Part shown: positions 3,633-5,725 of the stretch, in pieces
How the letters are laid out: the number at the start of each line of letters is the position of its first letter
How positions within the stretch are numbered: position 1 is the stretch's first letter
IMG/VR virus record: IMGVR_UViG_3300048597_000085
Coordinates: 1 to 37,131 of that record
Length of the DNA: 37,131 nucleotides
Reading direction: 5' to 3' (one strand)
DNA from: a virus
Translations under genes and position numbers: made by a program
Notes under the pieces: generated by a model
What the model was told of the DNA's origin: nothing
Databases searched by the model: none
What the model saw: the letters and a program-made list of their open reading frames with translations, nothing else

Positions 3633-4775
3633 TTACCATTGGATATTTATTGAAAAGCCCGGAGCGCGGCATCCCATTTGGCCATAAAAGCCATAACGAA
3701 CTTCAACGCCGTCAGCGCTTGCTTGACGAAGCATTTGTAAACCGTCTGTGTCGATCACTCTTACAGCTTTTCCTAAAGAGTAAAGCTTCCAAGTATCAAG
3801 CTGCACACCAAAGCAGCGATTGCCGGGGCAGTTTTGATCTGGGATAACTTTGATCGGTCCACGAGGTCCATTAATCATGATCCCACGGAAACCAATGTCT
3901 GCATTTACTTTTAAATCAACATACTGCACTTTCGCGCCTAGTGATTTTTCAAGCTCTGCATACTTGTCGTAGCTCATGAAGAAGTGGTCAATCTTACCAC
4001 CTTCGCGTGCAACGCGGCTTGCACCTTCAATTAGAGCTTCCTCTAAAGGAATGTTTGTAGCGTCGTAGCGCTGTCCACCAAGACGAGTTACGTCGATTGA
4101 GCGGTCAACACCAAAGAAAGCGGTAGCACCTGGAGCAGAAGCCGGAAGCCATGCCTCAAAACCAGAAAGCTTCAAACCTCTATCGCCCTCAACAAACAGA
4201 TAGTCGTTTGCAGCAAGGTTTCCAGAAGAATTGTAAGTCCCAGTCAAAGTGATTGTGCCGGCTGAACGATCAACCGCTGCAATCACCCATTCGTCGTCTG
4301 ATCCGTCAGAGGTCTTAGCCGATCCGCCAGTGAGCGCGGCATAAGCAACAAGTACCATTCCGACTTCAAAGTTTGTAACGTCGCTTGGCTCTTTCAAAGT
4401 AATAACAAACGGCGTGGCCTCTGTGGGCTCAGCGTTTAGCTGTCCAATTTGGCCTGATCCGTCTCTGTACATTGAAATAGCCAAAGAGCGAGTAAGTGAG
4501 TTAATAGCGCCGTCGATTTCAGTCGTTGCAGCTTCCATGAAAGCGTTAGGATTTCCCTTAGACGCTTCAAGAGTTTCGTTATCAATCGTAGCGATTGAAT
4601 AGTCTTTTACACGAGTCAAAGTAAAAGCATCAATCAAGCTGTTTGTAGCAGCGCCACGAGTTTGTGCGTTTGAAAACGTAGCAGAACGGCCTTGCGGGTT
4701 TCCATAAATCAATGGAATTGGCAAGTTGCGGCCGCCAAAGCTTTCCATTTTTGGCACAAGCGCCATTAAAGGGTT
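3633..4775 (-). CDS. Major capsid protein, exon 2 (residues 29-408)
   Basis: This is the main part of the HK97-fold type major capsid protein. Read alone, the frame could only start at a TTG (4778), with no ribosome site, and would begin NPLMALVPKMESFGGRNLP. That sequence is an internal position in related capsid proteins, where a short N-terminal arm precedes it. The arm is found at 5532-5615. Joining 5532 directly to 4775 gives ...MNMVYKD|NPLMALVPKM... in one frame, a 408-residue protein. The chain includes 'YGNPQGRSATFSNAQ', a glycine/threonine-rich insertion around residues 165-225 and a C-terminal 'RAPGFSINIQW'. The product would assemble the head shell with the scaffold encoded upstream. 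Expression depends on removing the intron. Confidence 0.9.
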   Translation of the reverse strand, partial: NPLMALVPKMESFGGRNLPIPLIYGNPQGRSATFSNAQTRGAATNSLIDAFTLTRVKDYSIATIDNETLEASKGNPNAFMEAATTEIDGAINSLTRSLAISMYRDGSGQIGQLNAEPTEATPFVITLKEPSDVTNFEVGMVLVAYAALTGGSAKTSDGSDDEWVIAAVDRSAGTITLTGTYNSSGNLAANDYLFVEGDRGLKLSGFEAWLPASAPGATAFFGVDRSIDVTRLGGQRYDATNIPLEEALIEGASRVAREGGKIDHFFMSYDKYAELEKSLGAKVQYVDLKVNADIGFRGIMINGPRGPIKVIPDQNCPGNRCFGVQLDTWKLYSLGKAVRVIDTDGLQMLRQASADGVEVRYGFYGQMGCRAPGFSINIQW

Positions 4776-5531
4776 CAATCTTGTTACCGTGAGGGCTTTT
4801 TATCCCTCACTTCTTCTGGTCCCCCAGAAGTTCAGCGTACATTTTCAACCGTAAACGGTTGTCGGACACTCTTGGGAAGTTTCTATTCTGCTTCTTTTTA
4901 TGCTATTTTCAAAATGCCAAAGAGGTTGAAGGTTTGAAAAATGACAAGCCATCGCTAGTTGCTTTTTGTCTGTTAAATCAAAAGATGCAAGCGGCTTTAT
5001 GTGGTCAATATGCCAACCTTTTATCCCGTGATTTTCCCAGCTCATTCCCGGCTTGAATTTACCCTCTAAATGCACGCGCAATTCTGAAAAAGAGCATCCC
5101 AACAAATTCTGTATGGACTCTTCTTTTCTAACACCCTTAAGCGCTCGGTTTAGTCTTGTTCTTAAGGCGTGTGCTAGTCTTGCGTTTACATCTTTCTGCA
5201 ATCTAATTTTAGCTAACAAATTAGATCTCTCTTTGTATTTTTCAGCATAAGTTTTTTTGTAATTGCGAAGATGCTCTTGATTTTTTTGCTTCCATAAATC
5301 AATGCGAGCCTTAGTTTTAGCACTTCGGCTTCTGTGGCGACGGCAAAAACCTATGGTATTTTCCGCTCTTAATTTTTCTCCACACACTTCACAATTCACA
5401 GTTTCACTTCCTACGCGTTACGGTACTTATTGGTTTTATCCTTTAAGTTACCTCGGAGTTATCTGGTCTAGACTTTCTCCGATTTTGCCCGATGTTTACT
5501 CTTGCGTTACCGCAAAAGGGGACTAACCTTA
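4776..5531 (-). ncRNA. Group I-type self-splicing intron in the major capsid gene
   Basis: This 756-nt insertion interrupts the capsid gene. The 5' exon ends in U (GGAU) and the last intron base is G, the group I rule; excision fuses GAT to AAC and restores the capsid frame exactly. Structural signs on the minus strand: the 5' exon GGAU can pair with GUCC at 5523-5520, with the splice-site U opposite G (P1). UUGCG-GUAA-CGCAA is a perfect GNRA hairpin (5502-5515, P2-like). UCGGAG/CUCCGA (5477-5482 with 5453-5458) forms another stem. Near the 3' end there are CUUCUGG-GGGA-CCAGAAG (4813-4830) and GUGAGGG/CCCUCAC (4789-4810), P9-like hairpins. I could not assign P3, P7 and P8 by eye, so the subgroup is open. 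The intron carries the HNH gene. Confidence 0.82.
4845..5399 (-). CDS. HNH homing endonuclease encoded inside the capsid intron
   Basis: A 184-residue protein starting at GTG 5399 with AGGAAG upstream. The N-terminus is a small zinc-ribbon-like module (CEVC ... CRRH, residues 4-22), followed by a basic helical region rich in Lys and Arg (residues 25-85). The HNH nuclease core lies at about residues 125-170: 'GWHIDHIKPLASFDL' holds the His-Asp-His triad, and 'SNLQPLWHFENSIKRSR' supplies the final Asn and His. Such enzymes cut intron-less alleles of the host gene so that repair copies the intron in. The gene lies wholly inside the proposed intron and ends 69 nt before the 3' splice site. Confidence 0.88.
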   Translation of the reverse strand: MNCEVCGEKLRAENTIGFCRRHRSRSAKTKARIDLWKQKNQEHLRNYKKTYAEKYKERSNLLAKIRLQKDVNARLAHALRTRLNRALKGVRKEESIQNLLGCSFSELRVHLEGKFKPGMSWENHGIKGWHIDHIKPLASFDLTDKKQLAMACHFSNLQPLWHFENSIKRSRIETSQECPTTVYG

Positions 5532-5615
5532 ATCCTTATAAACCATATTCATTACGCGATCATCCGTATAGTGCTCCTTCAAGGCAGCATCGAATGATGT
5601 CATATCTAAACTCAT
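5532..5615 (-). CDS. Major capsid protein, exon 1 (residues 1-28)
   Basis: This short open frame of 28 codons starts at ATG 5615, with AGGAG eleven bases upstream. It reads MSLDMTSFDAALKEHY and ends MVYKD; the next codon in unspliced RNA is a stop (TAA at 5531-5529). The sequence matches the expected N-terminal arm of capsid proteins whose next residues are NPLMALVP. It is the only nearby frame with a good ribosome site, and it follows the scaffold gene, where the capsid start should be. It lies about 110 nt downstream of a copy of the conserved late element. Confidence 0.88.
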
Positions 5616-5725
5616 TTTTCATTCTCCTGTTAGTTTGTTAAAATTATTACACTTTGTTTTTTTAGGGTTTTTTGTTTTTGGCTTAAATTTGACTTAAAAT
5701 GCCGCTTTTTCTCTTAAAAAACTCT

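Follow-up and report, generated by a model that had tools for sequence, protein, structure and literature searches.

How a major capsid protein can be made from a gene that lies in two pieces is the question raised by the record IMGVR_UViG_3300048597_000085 of an uncultured phage, the whole 37,131 nucleotides (nt) of which are referred to here as the window. On the minus strand, a frame of 28 codons with an ATG start (5613–5615) and a ribosome site AGGAG upstream (5624–5628) has GAT as its last codon (5532–5534) and is directly followed by the stop TAA (5529–5531). The downstream capsid frame, from 4775 to 3633, begins AAC CCT TTA ATG and has no start codon of its own. The minus strand reads GTT TAT AAG GAT / TAA GGT TAG TCC at the 5' junction and GTAACAAGATTG / AAC CCT TTA ATG GCG at the 3' junction. 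Once the 756 nt from 5531 to 4776 are taken out, GAT is joined to AAC and the spliced reading is a capsid protein of 408 residues. The initial annotation of this DNA had described the 28-codon frame, the startless capsid frame and the 756 nt whose removal restores one frame, and this is confirmed to the base by the sequence, the open reading frames (ORFs) and the relatives. Its prediction that an automated caller would choose a false TTG start was also borne out, the automated call starting at TTG 4778, inside the insert. The insert is, with high confidence, a group I intron between capsid codons 28 and 29 whose P7.1 loop houses the gene of an HNH homing endonuclease.

An uninterrupted ...MVYKDNP(L/F)LAL... 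frame across the KD/NP junction was found in 18 out of 18 relatives in a first metavirome scan, and in a second scan the arm was unbroken across this junction in 75 of the 79 capsid genes checked. The four exceptions are a locus with the window's intron (L164), two with introns at other codons (L205 and L198) and one contig-edge case. L164 and a further locus, L019, are one contig (IMGVR_UViG_3300045051_000408), which carries a 756-nt insert at the same base as the window, with identical borders (GGAT/...TTG/AACCC) and 82.5% identity to the window's insert without indels. Both scans therefore provide the exact empty allele expected of a group I intron and, together with the same insert in L019, this indicates that the insert is real and precise, rather than an assembly artefact. 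Alignment of intron-less homologues had been proposed as a check with the initial annotation; the 28-residue arm is present and conserved in these, and none is cut at KD/NP. Because the intron-less homologues carry the arm, it is judged to be ancestral and conserved. If so, the capsid supply must depend on splicing, as the initial annotation had claimed and as the conservation of the arm supports.

No relative of the capsid proteins was found among GenBank phages, hence there is no close cultured relative, and the genome contigs contained only two, both from metagenome-assembled genomes. In the capsid tree the two intron-bearing genes, of the window and L019, group together (support 96/99), a placement that fits a single intron gain. 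No exon co-conversion gradient was found between the window and L019. The synonymous divergence (dS) between them is 0.8 for the HNH gene, less than in capsid exon 2 (1.4) and in the flanking genes (>1.7). A transfer after divergence, hinted at by these values, is not claimed here, the dS of the HNH gene being uneven along its length and the synonymous sites near saturation.

The structure of the insert is that of a group I intron (Table 1). There is a U in the U.G pair of P1, an omega-G at the 3' end and a P10. The core has P3 to P8, with the P4-P6 and P3-P9 domains, and P7 has both a bulge and an invariant guanosine-binding pair, G5416-C4835. Read by eye, the pairings are UCGGGC/GUCCGA in P3, UCGGAG/CUCCGA in P4, A(C)GCGUA/UACGCU in P7 and GGAAG/CUUCC in P7.1, the last being the only hairpin found by RNAalifold between P7 and P3'. 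A single hairpin at this place would be expected of subgroup IA1, to which the intron may belong. The splice-site U-G pair for which the initial annotation had named a candidate is U5532.G5523 in P1, and its GNRA hairpin is P2, with a GUAA loop; the pair recurs in L019, where the hairpin is compensated. Two 3' hairpins had also been noted, and these are present and can now be identified as P9 and P9.1. The complete HNH gene is likewise in place, but its extent is corrected to 4845–5399, with a GTG start and with last codons that overlap P3' and P8.

Covariation was assessed in an alignment of 20 family members, with the endonuclease gene excised from two, that was partly anchored on the search motif over J8/7-P7'. 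Without any structure being supplied, RNAalifold recovered P3, P4, P5, P6, P7.1, P8, P9 and P9.1; of the 50 pairs, 39 are compensatory. Inclusion of P7 as a pseudoknot gave pairing in 96.2% of cells and double changes in 41 of 56 pairs. The covariation score, P7 included, is 0.601, versus 0.192 when shuffled and at most 0.112 when slid. In each of the 83 loci that were scored, the P7 bulge co-varies with the neighbouring pair (G(A)/C in 49 and A(C)/U in 34), although the script sought only these two 5' forms and two further loci had neither. Covariance models built from 18 members, leaving out the window and L019, find the 3' half (model R1) and the 5' half (model R2) of the window's intron and have no further match elsewhere in the 37-kb window. 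The group I-type call of the initial annotation is thus supported by the complete core, the compensatory changes and the independent covariance models.

In the proposed mechanism, the GGAU at the end of exon 1 would pair with the guide GUCC in the pre-mRNA, generating P1, and a guanosine bound at G5416-C4835 of P7 would attack after U5532. The omega-G, 4776, would next occupy the same guanosine site and the exons would be joined, with the AACC of exon 2 held by the guide GGUU (P10) during joining. Unspliced mRNA would yield the 28-residue arm only, because TAA is the first codon of the intron, and would also be the source of the HNH protein. This protein probably cuts intron-less alleles, by which the intron would home.

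The HNH protein matches PHROG endonuclease VII (E 4e-8). Residues H133, N156 and N165 do not vary among 13 sequences, and the predicted fold has strands at 129–133 and 157–161 and a helix at 162–171 in a C-terminal beta-beta-alpha part. The H-N-N/H motif is seen in the alignment, and the beta-beta-alpha fold that should hold it in the predicted structure. The dN/dS of the gene is ~0.2 between the window and L019, which points to purifying selection, as expected of a homing endonuclease; homing by this protein is inferred. The ribosome site of the gene, AGGAAG at 5407–5412, falls within P7/P7.1, and the final codons of the gene make up P3' and P8, so that translation of HNH and folding of the ribozyme should be mutually exclusive.

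Several observations weigh against this reading. A search with the Rfam model RF00028 (Intron_gpI), which had also been proposed as a check, found no group I match in the window at gathering or permissive thresholds. The invariant pairs of P7 are not independent evidence, the alignment being partly anchored on the J8/7-P7' motif, and P1 is short at 4–5 bp. R1 and R2 match the introns of phages LL-H (21 bits) and Twort (22–30 bits) weakly, and on these scores the family shows only a distant likeness to the IA2 phage introns. The Pfam HNH match is marginal (E 0.11). The nearest solved folds found by Foldseek and VIA-align are HNH nucleases, but the matches are weak (best Z 4.3), and neither these searches nor a sequence search of the PDB found a close solved relative. 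Finally, splicing of the 756-nt insert is a prediction from the DNA.

The silence of RF00028 reflects the low score of the family under this model, rather than a non-group-I nature. The gathering cut-off is 50 bits, and the compact family member L095 aligns over the whole model at 31 bits (E 3e-6). On ten related loci there was no match at E 0.5, yet RF00028 does detect other group I introns in two loci. The window's intron is missed because of its P7, GCGUA/UACGC, and because its P7.1 loop holds the HNH gene. A 2025 study describes the RF00028 model as incomplete for phage introns (PMC11878797).

It is very unlikely that the HNH gene was merely inserted, with no splicing and with a shorter capsid made from the internal ATG at 4764–4766 (MALVPKM) or from another capsid gene. 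This ATG is 9 nt into exon 2 and splicing is a prediction, as stated, which would suit such an arrangement; however, related capsid proteins have kept the arm, no second capsid gene was found in the window, and the borders are exact and in frame, a U preceding the insert and a G being its last base. A complete, covarying ribozyme core would also be left unexplained. Ribosome bypass of the whole insert, of the kind seen in T4 gene 60, is less likely again. It would be served by the stop that is the first intron codon, directly after the 5' exon, but the take-off codon GAT differs from the codon before AAC (TTG), and the gap is filled by the HNH gene and a group I core and is more than 10 times the length of the T4 bypass.

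A fossil group I intron, with its core or its endonuclease dead in this phage, is about as improbable as the shorter capsid. The marginal Pfam score could be read in this way, and activity of the core and the endonuclease is a prediction. Against this, all of the core helices are intact, including the G-binding pair, bulge and omega-G, the HNH catalytic residues are invariant with a low dN/dS, and the capsid exons of the window and L019 are under purifying selection.

Table 1. Positions of the split capsid gene and of the intron elements in the window.
Feature	Position	Strand	Remarks
5' exon of major capsid gene, 28 codons	5532–5615	-	MSLDMTSFDAALKEHYTDDRVMNMVYKD; sequence and ORF reading; arm conserved in ~80 relatives
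Group I intron, 756 nt	4776–5531	-	first codon is in-frame stop TAA 5529–5531; last base omega-G 4776
3' exon of major capsid gene, SU10-type MCP, 380 codons + stop	3633–4775	-	
HNH endonuclease gene, 184 codons, GTG start	4845–5399	-	in P7.1 loop; stop inside P8
P1	5520–5535	-	exon GGAU 5532–5535 with guide GUCC 5520–5523; U5532.G5523 at splice site; U5531-A5524 extends; same in L019
P10 guide GGUU	5525–5528	-	pairs with first four exon 2 bases, AACC 4772–4775
P2 hairpin, UUGCG-GUAA-CGCAA	5502–5515	-	GNRA loop; compensated in L019 (CUUGAG-GUAA-CUUAAG)
Core 5' half	5408–5498	-	model R2, 65.2 bits, E 1.7e-13; covariation
P3 5' strand	5486–5492	-	core 5' half
P4	5477–5482/5453–5458	-	core 5' half
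P5		-	core 5' half
P6	5450–5452/5422–5424	-	core 5' half
P7 5' strand	5412–5418	-	bulged C5417
P7.1 5' strand, GGAAG	5407–5411	-	pairs with CUUCC 4875–4879; with 5412 also HNH ribosome site AGGAAG
Core 3' half	4782–4880	-	model R1, 100.2 bits, E 1.7e-19; covariation
P7.1 3' strand	4875–4879	-	core 3' half
P3 3' strand	4862–4868	-	core 3' half
P8	4857–4861/4846–4850	-	core 3' half
P7 3' strand	4834–4839	-	core 3' half
P9	4824–4830/4813–4819	-	core 3' half; loop GGGA
P9.1	4804–4810/4789–4795	-	core 3' half

The window's group I intron is one of a wide and poorly annotated phage intron family, which is new here. A metavirome motif scan identified ~85 distinct members (loci among L034–L163), the family having a P7 of the GCGUA/UACGC form. 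Blast searches of the intron halves against GenBank phages gave matches in introns or split loci of Staphylococcus, Arcanobacterium, Clostridioides, Alicyclobacillus, Dulem and crAss-like phages, these being split terL, tape-measure, polymerase and capsid loci. DNA like the intron 3' half is present in a terL gene of Bacillus subtilis plasmids (NZ_CP035398.1, 71588–71719, and six others), a cultured relative. The capsid gene of Dulem virus 41 (PP511520.1; L037 1450–2400) appears to be split by an intron of the same family after MAMQLAKYQMVNVQGWKG, and its GenBank capsid protein XCD04973.1 is without the first exon. The intron accounts for the capsid N-arm that automated annotation has lost, here and apparently in the Dulem virus 41 record. 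Since the family falls below the Rfam cut-off in standard use, it is probable that phage metagenomes contain many split structural genes with wrong annotation.

The N-arm of the capsid is a recurrent site of intron insertion, which is also new here. In addition to the codon 28/29 site of the window and L019, codon 9 of L198 is followed by an ORF-less intron of ~226 nt whose P7 looks by eye to be of the GACUA type and which has no Rfam match; L205 has an intron at codon 20 with the same core as the window and its endonuclease in the P9 loop, and L120 has an intron at the equivalent of codon 31. Introns in L083, L068 and others are further along the gene, most sites being within the first 60 codons. 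Group I introns at further sites of the same capsid superfamily were seen in L205 (1600–2500), L198 (2240–2470), L120, L083, L068, L051, L139 and L056, and some capsid genes of the superfamily have two to four insertions each. Immediately upstream of the L198 capsid gene, at ~1520–2190, there is by eye a GIY-YIG-like frame (KVYQIKCLESGKVYIGRTKLK). Near 12600 in L051 the capsid frame contains an in-frame TAA (LLEAT*DNAGAF) where relatives have lysine, which may be a point mutation, an error or another interruption.

Smaller insertions were found in one clade of these capsid genes. A spliced protein-to-DNA dynamic programme, in which no splice motif was assumed, was used to align 79 L139-type genes; 48 are intron-less and 31 have full introns of 203–888 nt. 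Mini-inserts of 30–59 nt, one or two per gene, are present in 28 of the 31 genes with a full intron and in no gene that lacks one (Fisher p 2e-18, a value that is too small, as loci and not independent events are counted and some contigs are near-copies). For 31 of 31 mini-inserts the full intron is downstream in the same gene. Interruptions of this kind occur among the loci L247–L326 (31 with introns), for example L247, L248, L251, L257, L274 and L317, and also in L056, L068, L083, L120 and L139. At the codon-50 site, L274 has a 33-nt insert where L270, L281 and L291 have full introns. The window's own capsid gene has no mini-insert.

All 23 distinct mini-inserts block translation. Each can also be positioned so that a U precedes it and its last base is G, a count that is partly guided, shifts of 1–2 bases that keep the protein having been settled by the U/G rule. 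With their real exons, P1 and P10 together form 7–14 bp (median 13), versus a mean of 4.0 with exons swapped between sites, although a single bulge or mismatch has to be allowed in P1 at codon 30 and in three of the cases at codon 45. The guide tracks synonymous exon change, AAAGCCCU occurring with GGGGCUUU and AAAGUCCU with GGGACUUU. The mini-inserts have no catalytic core and no room for P7. Codon-matched translational bypass was ruled out for them, as 0 of 23 fit. These features suggest that the mini-inserts are group I introns that have lost the core and depend on that of a sibling. It is conceivable, at somewhat below even confidence, that the ribozyme cores of this family serve both their own intron and the core-less introns of the same gene, the downstream full intron supplying the core that would splice the latter. 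If this trans-action is true, the window's core would be a relative of trans-acting cores, and inserts spliced by a neighbouring ribozyme would be natural group I introns that gave up their catalytic core. This would be a group I parallel to the change from self-splicing to trans-acting splicing, a step that would then be open to direct testing. In importance, this side finding outweighs the window's intron itself. To our knowledge, from a literature search of open-licence papers only, there is no natural example of core-less group I introns served by a sibling core.

Compared with known introns, those of the same family in Dulem virus 41, ROSA, 6ec, BE20, phiCDKH02, MMB025 and TPWB06 share with the window the GCGUA/UACGC-type P7, the covarying bulge, P7.1, the GAUAAAAAGCC loop of P9.1 and the UAACA... 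3' end. They differ in being located in terL, tape measure and DNA polymerase genes or, in Dulem virus 41, at another capsid site, and their endonuclease gene is often in another loop. The Twort and T4 td introns (both group IA2) and the LL-H terL intron are like that of the window in helix order, P7 bulge, P7.1 and omega-G, and Twort also in its UAACAUAAUUG 3' end. Unlike the window, however, the td and Twort introns have a GACUA/UAGUC P7 and a P7.2.

Capsid-gene introns with endonucleases are already of a known kind; what is new is the breadth of the family and the mini-introns. The window adds another case in which the most heavily made protein of a phage would be put behind a self-splicing step. 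The 820-nt intron of mycobacteriophage LittleE is also in the major capsid gene; a U precedes its 5' site, its last base is G and it contains an endonuclease frame. Its splicing was shown by RT-PCR and protein sequencing, and its type was left open as 'most likely a group I' (PMC3706429). In contrast to the window, the endonuclease frame of the LittleE intron runs on the other strand, and the phage is unrelated; a capsid intron is cited for Tuc2009 too (PMC3706429). For the mini-inserts, the nearest precedent would be the small PaSSU group I introns of Phialophora, in fungal rRNA, which at 63–75 nt keep P7, end in U and splice in vitro (PMC3160393). As in the mini-inserts, P1 and P10 are kept and most of the core is gone (PMC3160393), whereas the phage mini-inserts, at 30–59 nt, are too short to hold a P7, have G as their last base, are found only beside a full intron and are not in rRNA.
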